Part shown: one piece after another, positions 28,300 through 54,040 of the stretch
How positions within the stretch are numbered: position 1 is the first letter of the stretch
Layout: each line of letters begins with the position of its first letter
The notes under the pieces: generated by a model
Database searches by the model: none
Seen by the model: only the letters and a program-made list of their open reading frames with translations
What the model was told of the DNA's origin: nothing
Made by a program: the position numbers and the translations under genes
NCBI GenBank assembly: GCA_017510335.1
Contig: JAFWNM010000029.1
Location: 98,445-162,444, forward strand
From: Paracoccaceae bacterium
Lineage (GTDB): Bacteria > Pseudomonadota > Alphaproteobacteria > Rhodobacterales > Rhodobacteraceae
Length of the DNA: 64,000 nt
Direction: 5' to 3'

Positions 28300-29622
28300 C
28301 TATCTGTAGCACTCGACCAGTTTGCGCAGGTTGACGCGCGCGCGCAATCTGGCCGCAAGCAGATACATGCCGCCAATCTTGCGGTGCAAGAATAGCGTGC
28401 TGGCAGGCGGCACATGCATCAGATCCCGATCTGTGCCCAAGGCCAGCCCCATATCGCGCAGCCGGTCCAGCAGGTCGGATGTGCCAAAGTCAAACGGGGT
28501 ATCGTGCCGCAGTGGCGCGATAGCGGTTTCAAACATGCGCTGGATCAGGTCTTGATGATGGGGCGCTGTGGCGGCGCCAAAATACCCGATATCCAGCATC
28601 GCGCGCCTGATGCGGTCCTGCCCGCCATCAAGCCCCGCATTCAGAAGGGCGCGAAAATCCGCAGCAAGCTGCGGGGAAATGCCCTGAACCGCGCCAAAAT
28701 CCAGCACCACAATGCGGCCAGTGGCCACCTGCACGCGAAAATTGGCGAAATTGGGGTCCGTCTGCATGGCCCCGAACACAAACAATTCGCGCAGCACCAG
28801 ATCCACCAGATGCATCGCTGCCCTGTCGCGGATATGTTGTGGGGCGTCTGCCAATGCCTCGACTGGGGCGCTTTCGATATAGCTCATGGCCAGAACGCGG
28901 GCGGTGCTCAGGTCGGGCTGGACCTGCGGCAGGACAAATCCATCCGATTGCGCCAGCAAATCCCCAAAGCGGCGCAGATTAGCGGCTTCGGCGGTATAAT
29001 CGGCTTCGGCATGCAATTGGCGTTTGGCGCTGTCCAGCAGGGGGGTAACGTCCATTCCCTTGGGCACCAGTCCCGTCATGCGCAGCAGCGCTGCAATATT
29101 GTTCACATCGCTGTCTATACTGGCCTGAATGCCGGGATACTGCACCTTGATGGCAATATCGCGCCCGTCCAGCGTGCGCGCGCGGTGAACCTGGCCTATG
29201 GACGCCGCCGCAAAGGGGCGCACGTCGAATTGCCCGAACCGCCCGCGCCAGCCTGTGCCCCATTCCGCATTCAGAACACCTTGCAGTTGCTTCGGGGGCA
29301 TGTGGCGCGCATCATCGCGCAAGGTGGCAAGAATGTCTGTCAGTTGGGGCGACAGGACAGTGCCTGCGTCCATCGACAGCATTTGTCCCAGTTTCAGCGC
29401 GGCACCGCGCATATGCGACAAACCGGCGGTCAAACGTCCCATATTAGCGGGTGTCAGCACCAGGTCGGGCAGGGCAGGGCGCTTGCCGCGGGCCAATTGG
29501 CTGACGCCGCTTGCGACCACACCCCCTGCAATGCCAGCCGTTATGCCCCCCAGATGCAGAAATCTGGAAGCGCGCGATGTCGGAACCGAAGCGCCATGCG
29601 GTGTCACAGGTTTGTTTGTCAC
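28300..29622 (-). CDS. ABC1/AarF/UbiB-family atypical kinase
   Basis: 440 aa from a GTG at 29622 with GGCAGGACTGAC upstream; longer frames to 29673 lack a ribosome site. Hallmarks are the KxGQ motif in AALKLGQMLSMD (about 75-86), the Ala-rich loop AAASIGQVHRA (about 135-145), AIKVQYPG with the invariant Lys (about 153-160) and the metal-binding IVVLDFGAVQG (about 300-310). UbiB-type proteins support quinone synthesis or membrane lipid handling through ATP binding. It starts with a hydrophobic glycine-rich stretch (GGITAGIAGGVVASG). It converges on the LysR gene; the family is certain, the client unknown. Confidence 0.88.
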   Translation of the reverse strand: MTNKPVTPHGASVPTSRASRFLHLGGITAGIAGGVVASGVSQLARGKRPALPDLVLTPANMGRLTAGLSHMRGAALKLGQMLSMDAGTVLSPQLTDILATLRDDARHMPPKQLQGVLNAEWGTGWRGRFGQFDVRPFAAASIGQVHRARTLDGRDIAIKVQYPGIQASIDSDVNNIAALLRMTGLVPKGMDVTPLLDSAKRQLHAEADYTAEAANLRRFGDLLAQSDGFVLPQVQPDLSTARVLAMSYIESAPVEALADAPQHIRDRAAMHLVDLVLRELFVFGAMQTDPNFANFRVQVATGRIVVLDFGAVQGISPQLAADFRALLNAGLDGGQDRIRRAMLDIGYFGAATAPHHQDLIQRMFETAIAPLRHDTPFDFGTSDLLDRLRDMGLALGTDRDLMHVPPASTLFLHRKIGGMYLLAARLRARVNLRKLVECYR

Positions 29623-29841
29623 GTCAGTCCTGCCAAAGTTGCCCATCCCGCAAGATGGGGCTGCAACCCGCATCGTCCAGTGATCAGGCGTGCGGGTGTT
29701 CCACTGCGCCCTTTCGTGGCGCGCAGCGCGCTATTGCTTAACCTGCCCGGTCAGGGCTACACTATCCCTGAGCAGGGAAGGGGCTGCGCCAGCGCTTGAC
29801 GCACATCTGACCCCGCATTTTGTTTATTGCCAGACAAGGTG

Positions 29842-30681
29842 ATGCGGCACTTGGATAAAAGTTTGTATCAGGGTTGCGGGTCCTGGCTGCGGCACGGGCT
29901 TCAGGCGCTTGGCCACGACATTGGACTGCGCGCGAACAGTATGAACATTGCGGCAACTGCGCAGACCTCAGCCCTGCATGAGGTATCTGAAAAGAAAGCC
30001 GTGGTGCCGGTGGATGACTTGCATCTGGCCTTGCTGAAGGGGGAACTGGCGCGCGCGCTTGAAATTTGTCGTGCGTTCAGGGCAGCGCAACGCCATGACA
30101 GGGCGGGTGTGTATGGCCGGTTGTTGTTGCCTGTCATCGCGCAGCTTGGCCGTGACTGGAGCGAGGACCGCGCCGGTTTCGAGGATGTGGCCTTCGCCTA
30201 CAGCCTTATGCACCGGATTATCGAAACCCTTGGCGAAAGCGACGCCCCCAAGTTGCGGGGGCAGGGGGGCTTGCACTTGGGGCGGGTCATCGTTGCTGTT
30301 GCGCCGGGGGATGCACATGATTTCGGCGCGCGCGTTCTGGTCAAGCATCTGCAGCTCCAGGGGTGGGATGCCCTGTTTGTCGACGGGTTCAGCACCAGGG
30401 AAATTATGCCCCTGCTTCAGGCTGGTCCGGTTGACGCGCTGGCTGTTTCTGTCAGCACCGATAGCGCTTTCATAGGTTTGGCAGATATGATAAATGAATG
30501 GCGTTGCGCCCAGGCGTCACAACACACGGAAGTGATTGTTGGCGGGGCGGCGATTGTGCCACCCTTCGGACATTACAATTTCTTGCAAGCAGATCAAGTT
30601 GGTCTGCGCATAAATGAAATGTCGGAGCATTTGCTAAGCCAAATGATGCATGGCCGATACGGCAGATGGAGTTTGTCATGA
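29842..30681 (+). CDS. PpaA/AerR-like cobalamin-binding regulator (second copy)
   Basis: 279 aa from the ATG at 29842 (AAGG just upstream; TTG at 29827 and ATG at 29941 are alternatives). The helical first domain (ALEICRAFRAAQRHDRAGVY, LLLPVIAQLGRDWSEDRAGF, EDVAFAYSLMHRIIE) aligns in pattern with the PpaA encoded at 49276. The second domain is a B12-binding fold with the canonical DxHxxG motif in APGDAHDFGARVL, where the His is the cobalt ligand, and VGGAAIVPP near the end. It overlaps a truncated PpsR-like gene, mirroring ppaA-ppsR. It is probably a light/cobalamin-sensing antirepressor for that partner or for PpsR. Confidence 0.75.
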   Translation: MRHLDKSLYQGCGSWLRHGLQALGHDIGLRANSMNIAATAQTSALHEVSEKKAVVPVDDLHLALLKGELARALEICRAFRAAQRHDRAGVYGRLLLPVIAQLGRDWSEDRAGFEDVAFAYSLMHRIIETLGESDAPKLRGQGGLHLGRVIVAVAPGDAHDFGARVLVKHLQLQGWDALFVDGFSTREIMPLLQAGPVDALAVSVSTDSAFIGLADMINEWRCAQASQHTEVIVGGAAIVPPFGHYNFLQADQVGLRINEMSEHLLSQMMHGRYGRWSLS

Positions 30682-31409
30682 CTACCCCCACGCGTGAAAT
30701 CGTTGCGTTTGAAAAGAACTTTTCAGAATTTGCGCCGTCTGTGTTGGGTCAGGTCGTCTTGGCGGCAAGTGACCTGTGCCTGATTGTGTCGCCCGAGCGC
30801 GTGATAGAGGATATTTTCCGCGGCGGCGCGCTGGAAGATTTGCGTGGCGACGATTGGGTGGGCAAGGACCTTCGCGCAATTGTCGGATCGGAAGTCTGGC
30901 ATAAACTGGACCTGCTGTGGACTGTGCAAGACGCAGAAGCGCCTGTCTGGCGCCATCTGAATTTTATTGACCCGAATGAGTCTGCGGGCGTGCCCCTGCT
31001 GGTGTGTCGGGTGGATGCCGGGGACGGGCGGTCGATTCTGGTGTGTCGTGACTTGCGGCCAGTGGTGCGCATGCAGCAGAAGTTCAATCGCGCCATGCTG
31101 GAGATGGAACAATCCTTCGAGGATATGCGCTGGAAGCAACAATTGGGGTCATCGGGTTTGCAAAGGCCCAAGGCAAAAGCGACAGCGCGCGGCCAGCAGG
31201 CAGGCGCGACTGTGGAAAAAGCGATGACCGAGATAGGACACCTGCCTTTGTCCGAAATCCTTGCCCAGACCGCGCGCGTTCTTGAAGACATGTGTATACG
31301 GCAGGCCTGTGAACAATGCGATTATGACCTGTCAAAAGCGGCTGAATTGTTGGGCGTAAGTTCCGATGACCTGGCCACGCGCATAACCTTTGAACCGAAG
31401 CGGGCCTGA
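30678..31409 (+). CDS. Truncated PpsR-like transcriptional regulator (one N-terminal domain, linker, HTH)
   Basis: 243 aa from the ATG at 30678, which overlaps the previous stop and has GGAG 8 bases upstream. Residues about 20-125 match the PpsR N-terminal PAS-like domain (DDWVGKDLRAIVGS; LRPVVRMQQKFNRAMLEMEQ against PpsR QRPVLEMQQMLLNAQ). The coiled linker follows. The two central PAS domains of PpsR are absent. The C-terminus (PLSEILAQTARVLEDMCIRQ, KAAELLGVSSDDLATRI) matches the Fis-type HTH of PpsR including its Cys, but the recognition helix differs. It may bind different DNA or form heterodimers with PpsR. No frameshift is visible. Confidence 0.75.
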   Translation: MTTPTREIVAFEKNFSEFAPSVLGQVVLAASDLCLIVSPERVIEDIFRGGALEDLRGDDWVGKDLRAIVGSEVWHKLDLLWTVQDAEAPVWRHLNFIDPNESAGVPLLVCRVDAGDGRSILVCRDLRPVVRMQQKFNRAMLEMEQSFEDMRWKQQLGSSGLQRPKAKATARGQQAGATVEKAMTEIGHLPLSEILAQTARVLEDMCIRQACEQCDYDLSKAAELLGVSSDDLATRITFEPKRA

Positions 31410-49153: not shown

Positions 49154-49275
49154 ATCTGCGCGCAAGCTGTGACACTGGAGTTGCTTATTATCTACATTCA
49201 AGGCCATTGCTTTTTGTGCGTCGTCCGGGGGTCTGGCTTGCGCGCGTGGTTTTGGAATCTGCCGGGGGGGCAGAG

Positions 49276-50073
49276 ATGGAAGGACTTCGTTTAGCGCATT
49301 TCGAGGATATGACTTCGGGACAGGCCGTGGTGCGCCAGTTCGCCCTTCGGGTGGTGTCAGAGCTAGTCCAGAAATCCGGCGTGGAATCCGGTGACCCGGA
49401 TCGCGACCTGCTTAGTCTGATGGTCAGGCTGTCCAAAAGTGCCGATCCCGGCATGTTCGCAGCCGTCTATGACGAGATGAAACGCAGGCGCATTTCGGCA
49501 GAGCAGATCGTCGACATATACCTGCCCGCCGCCATATCCAAGCTGGGCAACAGCTGGCATGAAGGCGAGCTGGACATATTTCAGGCAACACTTGCCATGG
49601 CGCGTCTGCAATCATTGTTGCGTGAAATTGCGCTGGCGTGGTTTGCGGACCGTTCCGGGGATTGCCATGACGGGCGCGTGTTCCTGGTTCTGCCATCAGG
49701 CGAACAGCACAGTTTGGGCGCGATGGTCGCTGCCAACCAGATGCGCCGGCTGGGAATTTCCGTGCGGGTCAGTTTGCTGCCCACCGCGCGCTCGATCGAG
49801 GACGAGCTGTCAGAACACCGGTTTCATGCGGTTTTCATATCGGCATCAAACCGCTCATCCTTGACGCCCTGTGTTGAACTCGTGAGAACGATTCGGGCGC
49901 ATTCCGGCAAAGATTTGCCGGTGGCGCTGGGGGGCGCATTGGTGACATTGTTACAAAAAGACATGAGCTTAAAGCATATCGCTGCAACGGTGGGCGCAAA
50001 TATAGCCACCACACAGATATCAGAGGCTTTAACTTTCTGTGGTTTGGCCATAAATCACAATAATGTCGGGTAA
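49276..50073 (+). CDS. ppaA: PpaA/AerR cobalamin-binding antirepressor of PpsR
   Basis: 265 aa from the ATG at 49276; a TTG at 49207 would add 23 residues of doubtful value. The helical domain (MFAAVYDEMKRRRISAEQIV, YLPAAISKLGNSWHEGELDI) is followed by a B12-binding fold. The motif SGEQHSLGAMVAANQMRRLG supplies the axial His in the ExHxxG position, and VALGGALVTLL lies near the end. In Rhodobacter, PpaA/AerR bind cobalamin and relieve repression by PpsR/CrtJ according to light and oxygen. It is followed by ppsR after 63 bp, the canonical arrangement. A divergent paralogue pair is at 29842-31409. Confidence 0.9.
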   Translation: MEGLRLAHFEDMTSGQAVVRQFALRVVSELVQKSGVESGDPDRDLLSLMVRLSKSADPGMFAAVYDEMKRRRISAEQIVDIYLPAAISKLGNSWHEGELDIFQATLAMARLQSLLREIALAWFADRSGDCHDGRVFLVLPSGEQHSLGAMVAANQMRRLGISVRVSLLPTARSIEDELSEHRFHAVFISASNRSSLTPCVELVRTIRAHSGKDLPVALGGALVTLLQKDMSLKHIAATVGANIATTQISEALTFCGLAINHNNVG

Positions 50074-50136
50074 CTGATATAATATTAAGTCCGTGCTACT
50101 ATGAATGGCCGGATATCAGGAAGGAGCAGGTTTACT

Positions 50137-51564
50137 GTGTCTAATGATGGCGCCAGATTCCTTGAAAGTGGCTCGGTGCCCGTGTTCGGTGGGGATTTCT
50201 TTTCTGCTGTTCTGACCAGTCTTGCCGATATTTCATTCCTCATCTCTGACGAAGCTATTGTGAAGGTGGTTCATGTCAAGGCTGATGCCGCAAGTTTTGA
50301 CGGGGCGTCGCGCTGGGTGGGCGAGGACTTTGTTACGCTGCTGGAGTCTGAAAGCGTTCCAAAGTTTCAGGAACGACTGTCAGACCTGATTGGCCGCGCC
50401 CGCAAGGGTGAAGCAGTGCCATCGCGCTGGGTGGAGCTGGTGCATGTGGTCAAGCCCGGCCAGACTGTTCCTGTGCGCTATGTCATGCACTGGATTGAAG
50501 AAAGCGGCGAAATCCTGTTGCTGGGAACAGACCAGCGCCCGGTTCTGGAAATGCAACAGATGTTGTTGAACGCCCAGATCGCGCTGGAGCGTGATTACGA
50601 GGCCCAGCGGGAAATCGACACGCGATATCGCCTGTTGATGGATTTTACCACCGATGCGGTGGTTCTTGTTTCTGCCATGTCCGGGCAGATTGTGGATATA
50701 AACCACAATGCGGCGTCCTTGCTGGGGCGGGGGCGCGCAGATCTTATCAAGCGGCCCTTTTCCGACCAGTTTGTTGGGCGCGGCAAGGATGAATTGATGG
50801 CCGCGCTTGATATTCCCTCCTCCATGGATGCCTCTCCCGCCATAGAGGTAGAGGTCAAGGCAGAATCGCGCCGCCTGTTGCTGACCCCCAAGATTTTCCG
50901 CGCCGCCGGTGAGCAGCTGGCCATGGTGCGCCTGAGTGACGTTGCGCAAGGGTCGTCTGCGGATGGGCGGCTGTTGACCAACCTGCGCCAGCTGTTCCAT
51001 CGCGGGGTGGATGCGATTGTATTCACCGACAAGGAAGGCTTGATTCTTGCGGCCAGCGAAACATTCCTGAACCTGACCGACGCGCCGGGCCTTACGGCAG
51101 TGCGCGGGCGGTCGATGGCGGATTTTTTAAGCCGGGGCATGGTCGACCTGAAGGTGTTGCTGGACAACGCCCGCCGCGCAGGCCAGCTGCGCATGTATTC
51201 GACCAAGCTGAAGACAGATTTTGACGCGCGCGTGACTGTCGAAATATCGGCAACATGGCTGGATGACCGCGTTGATCCGGTTCTGGCGCTGATTATCCGC
51301 AATGCGTCGAACGCGGCGGCGCTGCGCGCCGACAATGCAACCCCCGAAGCGAATATGCGCGGGGTGATGGAACTTGTCGGGTCTTCGACCCTGAAGGACA
51401 TTGTGTCAGAAACCACCAATGTCATCGAGAAAATCTGTATCGAAACCGCCATTGAACTGACGCGCAACAATCGTGTTGCTGCTGCCGAAATGCTGGGTCT
51501 GTCGCGCCAGTCGCTTTATGTGAAGCTGCGGAAATATGGCATTCTTAGCCGTGACGAAGGTTAG
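50137..51564 (+). CDS. ppsR: PpsR/CrtJ, redox-responsive repressor of photosynthesis genes
   Basis: 475 aa from a GTG at 50137 with AAGGAG 10 bases upstream; an ATG at 50101 is a weaker choice. Domain order: N-terminal PAS-like domain (about 15-125), helical Q-linker (MQQMLLNAQIALERDYEAQR), PAS1 (YRLLMDFTTDAVVLVSAMSG), PAS2 (FHRGVDAIVFTDKEGLILAA) and Fis-type HTH (AAAEMLGLSRQSLYVKLRKY). It binds TGT-N12-ACA palindromes aerobically to repress bch, crt and puc genes. The only cysteine is in the HTH helix (EKICIE); the second, redox-active Cys described in R. sphaeroides PpsR has no counterpart. Confidence 0.96.
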   Translation: MSNDGARFLESGSVPVFGGDFFSAVLTSLADISFLISDEAIVKVVHVKADAASFDGASRWVGEDFVTLLESESVPKFQERLSDLIGRARKGEAVPSRWVELVHVVKPGQTVPVRYVMHWIEESGEILLLGTDQRPVLEMQQMLLNAQIALERDYEAQREIDTRYRLLMDFTTDAVVLVSAMSGQIVDINHNAASLLGRGRADLIKRPFSDQFVGRGKDELMAALDIPSSMDASPAIEVEVKAESRRLLLTPKIFRAAGEQLAMVRLSDVAQGSSADGRLLTNLRQLFHRGVDAIVFTDKEGLILAASETFLNLTDAPGLTAVRGRSMADFLSRGMVDLKVLLDNARRAGQLRMYSTKLKTDFDARVTVEISATWLDDRVDPVLALIIRNASNAAALRADNATPEANMRGVMELVGSSTLKDIVSETTNVIEKICIETAIELTRNNRVAAAEMLGLSRQSLYVKLRKYGILSRDEG

Positions 51565-54022: not shown

Positions 54023-54040
54023 TGTCAGGCAAAGTTTACA
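54023..54040. promoter_or_regulatory. PpsR/CrtJ-type box immediately before bchG
   Basis: TGTCAGGCAAAGTTTACA fits TGT-N12-ACA and shares the TTTACA arm with the bchE and crtI boxes. It ends only two bases before the bchG ATG, so it would overlap the ribosome-binding zone; no Shine-Dalgarno sequence is visible there. Confidence 0.6.

Follow-up and report, generated by a model that had tools for sequence, protein, structure and literature searches.

Two adjacent genes in the 64,000-nt stretch of Paracoccaceae DNA analysed here (the window) are a conserved two-gene module. The first gene, P1, encodes an AerR/PpaA-like protein with a cobalamin-type domain. The second, P2, encodes a PpsR-like protein reduced to the N-domain, the Q-linker and the helix–turn–helix (HTH). 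Some relatives of Roseinatronobacter among the purple bacteria have this pair in addition to the regular PpaA–PpsR switch. PpsR/CrtJ with AerR/PpaA is the textbook repressor–antirepressor switch of purple bacteria. The reading we favour, with a probability of roughly 0.4 and based on sequence comparison, is that P2 acts as a decoy that pairs with PpsR and weakens repression, with P1 gating it by B12 and light. More tentatively still, the pair may be a natural bacterial Id-type regulator, that is, a PpsR without PAS domains and DNA-reading residues that is dominant-negative and cobalamin-switched and gives photosynthesis a second, parallel B12/light input.

The two genes, their proteins and their surroundings

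P1 (29842..30681, forward strand) runs from ATG 29842 to TGA 30681 and encodes 279 aa; an alternative start, TTG at 29827, gives 284 aa. PF02310 scored 35.4 bits on the protein (cut-off 32.1), and PF02607 barely passed (23.4 bits, cut-off 23). When P1 and its relatives were searched as a profile, the top solved structure was AerR of R. capsulatus (7te2, E 5.3e-9). The predicted structure had a mean pLDDT of 67, with residues 1–53 uncertain, and its Foldseek matches were CarH-type, photocobilin, AerR, AppA-SCHIC and corrinoid-protein structures. The helical cap (residues 57–131; 30010..30234, forward strand) was placed using PF02607, the model helices and row counts. The DxHxxG motif (D157, H159 and G162; 30310..30327, forward strand) reads D157-A-H159-D-F-G162 in P1. 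In the alignment of 21 P1 sequences, its H and G are found in all 21 and its D in 19. A PpaA/AerR-like protein with a B12-type fold and this motif is what the original prediction had described, and these matches bear it out. P1 is predicted to bind cobalamin, with H159 as the predicted lower cobalt ligand.

The N-terminus of P1 carries a C12-x-x-W15 motif (29875..29886, forward strand; from the P1 alignment), with Cys in 19 and Trp in 20 of the 21 sequences (one is gapped). No CxxW was found at the equivalent columns of 55 PpaA sequences, where the N-terminal alignment is unsure, and a pairwise alignment of P1 with the resident PpaA (27% identity) sets W15 opposite a PpaA Trp. The motif falls in the part of the protein that in LAerR contains the upper-ligand His10, and may serve as an upper ligand or as a docking helix. 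The AerR-type partner-contact helix, with positions taken from PMC9144470, lies inside the cap (30010..30234, forward strand) and contains A117, S121 and H124. These residues are found in 17, 17 and 19 of the 21 P1 sequences, respectively; the same positions in the 55 PpaA sequences are T or S (54), A or S (53) and Q (51).

The P2 gene (30678..31409, forward strand) overlaps the P1 stop as ATGA. Its likely start is ATG 30678 (243 aa), and a GGAG ribosome-binding-like site is seen 6 nt upstream in the sequence (30668..30671, forward strand). An alternative in-frame ATG at 30666 gives 247 aa, and P2 residues are numbered from it here. TIGR02040 (PpsR-CrtJ) scored 69 bits on P2, below its curated cut-off of 275.4; two stretches pass in this model, the best covering model positions 4–129 of 442. 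A PDB sequence search matched P2 to PpsR (4hh3/4hh2), and the top seven Foldseek matches of its model against the PDB were all PpsR.

The P2 model (pLDDT 79) consists of a PAS-like N-domain, a helix at residues 131–161 and an HTH at residues 195–239. Model and alignments place the N-domain at 30735..31052 (forward strand), including the signature WRHLNF (residues 95–100). The helix is the Q-linker (residues 131–161; 31056..31148, forward strand), with the letters RPVVRMQQ. In place of PAS1–PAS2 there is a variable tether of ~33 residues (31149..31247, forward strand), recognised by low pLDDT and variable alignment; neither PAS domain was found in P2 by profile, model or alignment. The Fis-type HTH (31248..31385, forward strand) was assigned by PF02954 (HTH_8) and by counts against 80 PpsR sequences. 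Alignment places its Cys codon at 31293–31295 and its recognition helix, SSDDLATRI against SRQSLYVKL in PpsR, at 31359–31385 (both forward strand). The original prediction had read P2 as keeping the PpsR N-domain, an RPVxxMQQ linker and the Fis-type HTH while lacking both central PAS domains, and on each point our results agree with it. The HTH_8 match is borderline, at 21.5 bits on P2 alone (cut-off 22) and 24.4 bits, above the cut-off, in the whole-genome search. A Pfam DUF6456 match to P2 was dismissed (16.4 bits, cut-off 26.3).

Upstream of P1 lies an ABC1/UbiB-type kinase gene (28300–29673, reverse strand). Reading by eye, we found a sigma70-like promoter candidate, TTGCTT-N18-TACACT, before P1 (29734..29763, forward strand); genomes G421 and G426 have TTGCCT-N18-TACAGT at the same spot. 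The amidohydrolase gene starting 5 bp after P2 (31415–32758), which we take to be guanine-deaminase-like, was rejected as an operon partner, because L098 and L099 gave no match to it at that position. Next come a cytochrome c-like gene, which has a CQNCH motif and matches no Pfam family at 1e-4, and hemA of the photosynthesis cluster. The gene at the equivalent place in Roseinatronobacter sp. S2 is also named hemA.

The full-length PpaA–PpsR pair lies 18 kb from P1–P2. It consists of PpaA (49207..50073, forward strand) and PpsR (50101..51564, forward strand; TIGR02040, 420.7 bits), the proposed partner and target of P2. The pattern TGT-N12-ACA has 23 matches in the whole window. The 260 bp before the P1 start contained none in the window or in eight relatives, and one lay inside P1 of G412; a PpsR site upstream of P1 was therefore rejected. 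Six matches look like PpsR sites, with halves of the TTTACA, TTACA or TGTCAA type: two before ppaA (48997 and 49136), one before bchE (51673), one at 54023 and two between crtI and bchI (61190 and 61219). Reaction-centre L/M-type genes (PF00124) were found on another contig (G000:C37:13565-15215), and the photosynthesis genes of this genome are either split or separated by assembly breaks. Elsewhere in the same genome, HTH_8 matched a 202-aa open frame (G000:C27:20254-20343, L107).

Distribution, selection and origin of the pair

The protein search yielded 36 P2 matches, 35 of them besides the window's own, and 13 P1 matches including the window's own. Complete P2 was present in nine of the 38 genomes of the window's genus, and a P2 piece was found at a contig end in G405. 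P1 lies upstream of P2 in all nine (cut by the contig end in G415); G425 has a P1 piece at a contig end, and the eleventh genus match of P1, in G409, is that genome's PpaA. All nine genomes also hold PpaA and PpsR elsewhere (PpsR is cut by the contig end in G415). Three other genomes of the genus that lack PpsR (G394, G424 and G429) are also without P2, and no PpsR was found in G405, a genome 71% complete. Weak PpaA-like matches that are neither P1 nor PpaA, in frames of 284–347 aa, were seen in nine genus genomes (G410, G428, G398, G399, G397, G406, G396, G400 and G427).

At least three of 394 genomes in the family sample (the window's, G333 and G182) encode a short protein matching both PpsR ends, counted among the matches listed and the best seven candidates per genome, so that weaker ones could have escaped. 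The order sample (390 genomes, overlapping the family sample) adds G406 and G435 (E 1e-13). The 14 other matches in the class sample (385 genomes, E 1e-13) are all in frames of at least 478 aa. A synteny search had been proposed in the original prediction, and relatives do carry the pair: besides the nine genus genomes, distant versions occur in two further genera, giving relatives in three genera in total. G333, G435 and G182 have PpsR as well as reaction-centre genes.

The location of the pair varied. The edge of the photosynthesis cluster, where the pair had been placed, is its position in the window, G421 and G426 (three of 10 genus loci) and not at the other seven. Five loci are at yitT/typA, three with both genes as neighbours and two, located at contig ends, with yitT; no photosynthesis cluster gene was matched in the flanks analysed. 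The remaining two are G412, elsewhere, and G398, where a transposase gene lies between P1 and P2. This IS1595-type gene (L101 10293–11279) is on the opposite strand, and both P1 and P2 stay open. The distant G182 pair is inside the photosynthesis cluster, with the bchI side on one flank and the cytochrome c–hemA end on the other. Around the distant G333 pair (L105) there are IS-like genes, and long reading frames are few. Roseinatronobacter sp. S2 carries both pairs, together with this part of the cluster, on a 613-kb replicon (NZ_CP121115.1, L173) typed as non-mobilizable, where P1 is annotated as "cobalamin-dependent protein" (P8S53_RS17040) and P2 as "hypothetical protein" (P8S53_RS17045). 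Spread of the pair by plasmids was rejected, as this replicon was the single such record.

P1 and P2 are under purifying selection. The dN/dS ratio was 0.22 for P1 and 0.15 for P2 between G421 and G426, and 0.27 for P2 between G415 and G417; these three comparisons (0.15–0.27) had dS < 0.3, and the more distant computable pairs gave 0.14–0.46. Together with the 35 further protein matches and the conserved adjacency, the ratios argue that the module is more than a chance arrangement. Across 28 pairs from eight genomes, P1 and P2 distances were correlated at r 0.95 and P2 and PpsR distances at r 0.69. G398 and G410, for example, share 83% in PpsR and 39% in P2.

In a tree of the N-Q and HTH parts (108 rows, 29 P2 and 79 PpsR), all 29 P2 are on one side of a branch, outside the 79 PpsR, and this branch is long; P0036 and G182 have very long branches of their own. 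Every P2 row, close or distant, has the N-domain signature WRHLNF, where the resident PpsR reads RWVEL. WRHLNF is nearer to WR[QH][VL]NH, which is seen mostly in PpsR from outside the family; the family PpsR rows L021, L024, L034 and L110 have letters similar to it. The separate long branch gives no support to the description of the pair as duplicated, and the signature speaks against it, yet forcing 27 close P2 and 17 genus PpsR into one clade costs 16.8 log units with a p-AU of 0.115, in a test that omits the two longest P2 rows. P2 could thus still derive from a resident PpsR.

DNA face, Q-linker and the possible action of P2

The HTH was compared between 41 close P2 sequences (some near-identical) and 80 PpsR sequences; the two distant P2, of G333 (row P0036) and of G182, were set apart, and the cut PpsR row L132 was omitted. 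The core residues E207, C210, A214, A226, L229 and L236 are invariant among the 41 close P2. For C210, the PpsR count is 60 of 80, and we infer from the alignment that it is equivalent to C420 of CrtJ. The positions that we take, from the Fis fold, to be DNA contacts are replaced. R222, R233, Q234 and Y237 occur in 80/80 PpsR, S235 in 79/80 and R241 in 73/80, and none of the six occurs in any close P2, where position 234 is Asp in 41 and position 235 is Glu or Asp in 40. N221, K239 and K/R242 are common in PpsR (73–80 of 80); N221 is found in four close P2, and the other two in none (Arg at 239 in 41, F242 in 36). The mean net charge of residues 219–243 is −2.95 in close P2 (−4 to 0) versus +4.12 in PpsR (2 to 5). 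The changed recognition helix noted in the original prediction therefore belongs to a DNA face replaced in 41 of 41 close relatives. The new helix is itself conserved, with D234, L236 and R239 in all 41. Among the distant rows, P0036/G333 retain R233 and a basic recognition helix, and G182 has neither acidic residue at 234 and 235.

A conserved but altered helix is also what a homodimeric factor with a new DNA specificity would have, controlling another regulon with P1 as its private B12/light co-regulator and PpsR uninvolved. Besides the constancy of R239 (41/41) and F242 (36/41), this alternative draws on the closer co-divergence of P2 with P1 than with PpsR, on the five yitT/typA loci, on the HTH_8 score above the cut-off in the whole-genome search and on the basic helix of P0036/G333. 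We consider it somewhat unlikely. In none of the 41 close P2 does the DNA half have a net charge above zero, the acidic residues stand where PpsR has Gln and Ser in the helix (although the one at 235 may serve as a helix cap), and on P2 alone HTH_8 falls just under its cut-off.

The other conserved part of P2 is the region through which PpsR meets itself and its partners. The dimer of R. sphaeroides PpsR depends centrally on the N-domain and Q-linker, its tetramer forms by docking of PAS2 on the Q-linker, and AppA docks on the same Q-linker helix (PMC3949515). The AerR site on the CrtJ Q-linker, comprising Q133, L136, Q140, E144, Y147 and R151, is a model (PMC9144470), and in D. shibae, PpaA–PpsR contact is described as requiring B12 (PMC10890935). 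Among the 41 close P2, the Q133-equivalent is kept in all and the E144-equivalent, as Glu, in 32. The L136 position is Phe in 39, the Q140-equivalent is Met, Leu, Ile or Val in 41 and never Gln, and the Y147 and R151 positions are variable. Partner surfaces are changed in both P1 and P2, as would be expected if P1 serves P2.

This surface could also make P2 a sink for PpaA, in which its Q-linker would hold PpaA away from PpsR and strengthen repression, with P1 competing for the site. The Q-linker being the AppA docking site and the modelled AerR site is consistent with such a role, as are the largely kept Q133- and E144-equivalents. We regard it as improbable because P1 mostly has A117/S121/H124 where PpaA has T or S, A or S, and Q, because P2 has no Q140 and mostly Phe at L136, so that the pair looks to have moved away from PpaA–PpsR, and because a sink leaves the conserved HTH remnant unexplained. 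It is very improbable that the module arose recently from the resident PpaA–PpsR by duplication with internal deletion and is drifting to loss, given the purifying selection in the closest and in the other computable pairs, the relatives in three genera, the absence of WRHLNF from the resident PpsR and the several different loci, even though the AU test did not reject a clade of P2 with genus PpsR.

We therefore favour heterodimers with PpsR over the two other roles that had been suggested, titration of PpaA and control of a new regulon. A protein with the N-domain and Q-linker of PpsR and without its DNA-contact residues is a plausible decoy of PpsR. P2 would dimerise through its N-domain, Q-linker and HTH helices. 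P2–PpsR heterodimers would read operators poorly and, with PAS2 missing on one side, would tetramerise poorly. P1 would dock on the P2 Q-linker in the way the AppA SCHIC domain docks on PpsR, and in one of its cobalamin states it would release or withhold P2. The pair would resemble a dominant-negative partner of the Id type that has a sensor of its own.

Several observations support a decoy. The HTH core is kept and its DNA face lost across 41 close P2 and 80 PpsR, the genes are under purifying selection (dN/dS 0.15–0.27), and P1 and P2 diverge together (r 0.95). PpsR is also present in the nine P2 genomes of the genus and in G333, G435 and G182. The Q133- and E144-equivalents are kept in a region that serves the PpsR dimer, docks AppA and is the modelled site for AerR (PMC3949515, PMC9144470). 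Other observations weigh against it. The smallest dimeric PpsR construct found in PMC3949515 is N-Q-PAS1, so that N-Q alone may dimerise weakly. P2 distances track PpsR moderately (r 0.69), the Q-linker face is half kept, and a dedicated P1 makes a self-contained P1–P2 switch without PpsR possible. The basic recognition helix of P0036/G333, the seven of 10 genus loci off the cluster edge, and the P2 piece in G405, where no PpsR was found, also count against a decoy.

If true, the decoy reading shows how a repressor–antirepressor switch can turn into a decoy. P1–P2 would offer a minimal natural N-Q-HTH construct with which to find out which parts of PpsR are sufficient for partner choice and AerR docking. 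As the genes are present in a sequenced isolate, Roseinatronobacter sp. S2, they are directly testable.

Comparison with known systems

P2 resembles PpsR/CrtJ (TIGR02040; R. sphaeroides 4hh2, 4hh3 and 4l9g) in its N-domain, its RPVxxMQ Q-linker and its Fis-type HTH, in an HTH cysteine that aligns with [KR][IML]CIE and was taken as the CrtJ C420 type, and in the position of its gene downstream of an AerR-like gene. It differs in lacking PAS1 and PAS2, in being about half as long (69 of 275.4 bits), and in having acidic or neutral DNA-face residues and a recognition helix that departs from SRQSLY.KL. Truncated H-NS homologues such as H-NST, which have the oligomerisation part without working DNA reading, antagonise the full-length protein; H-NST is unrelated to P2, and the likeness is in the way of working.

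P1 shares with AerR/PpaA (7te2) a helical cap followed by a cobalamin-type Rossmann domain with the His ligand in [DE]xHxxG. Like AerR/PpaA, it has no DNA-binding domain and is encoded directly upstream of a PpsR-type gene, in this case P2 and not a full PpsR. It differs in having mostly D[AT]HxFG versus the EQHTLG common in PpaA, a conserved CxxW N-terminus and a contact helix with mostly A/S/H. Membership of P1 in CarH was rejected: it has no MerR-type domain, NF052513 gave 29.4 of 400 bits, and for the CarH signature, which we take to be W-x9-EH, no EH was found at +10/+11 from W106 in the P1 rows looked at.

In the texts and extracts of the open-licence literature searched, we found neither a natural PpsR lacking PAS domains nor a P1–P2 pair described. 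The gene table of the D. shibae cluster lists one ppsR and one ppaA (PMC6052148). Genomes with two PpsR-type genes also occur in R. palustris (from a title cited in PMC10949492) and in Bradyrhizobium, where the second copies (~457 aa) keep SRQSLY; unlike the reduced P2, these second PpsR are full-length. HP1 of R. rubrum is described as a PpaA/AerR-like regulator that has diverged and that affects more than photosynthesis (PMC10734443); it lost the cobalamin domain and sits beside ppsR, whereas P1 keeps the domain and adjoins a reduced PpsR. The AppA SCHIC domain, which binds haem within a flavin photoreceptor protein (PMC9144470, PMC6199135), has the same fold as P1 (Foldseek) and the same proposed docking site on a PpsR Q-linker; P1 differs from it in having no flavin domain (Pfam) and in retaining the cobalamin motif.
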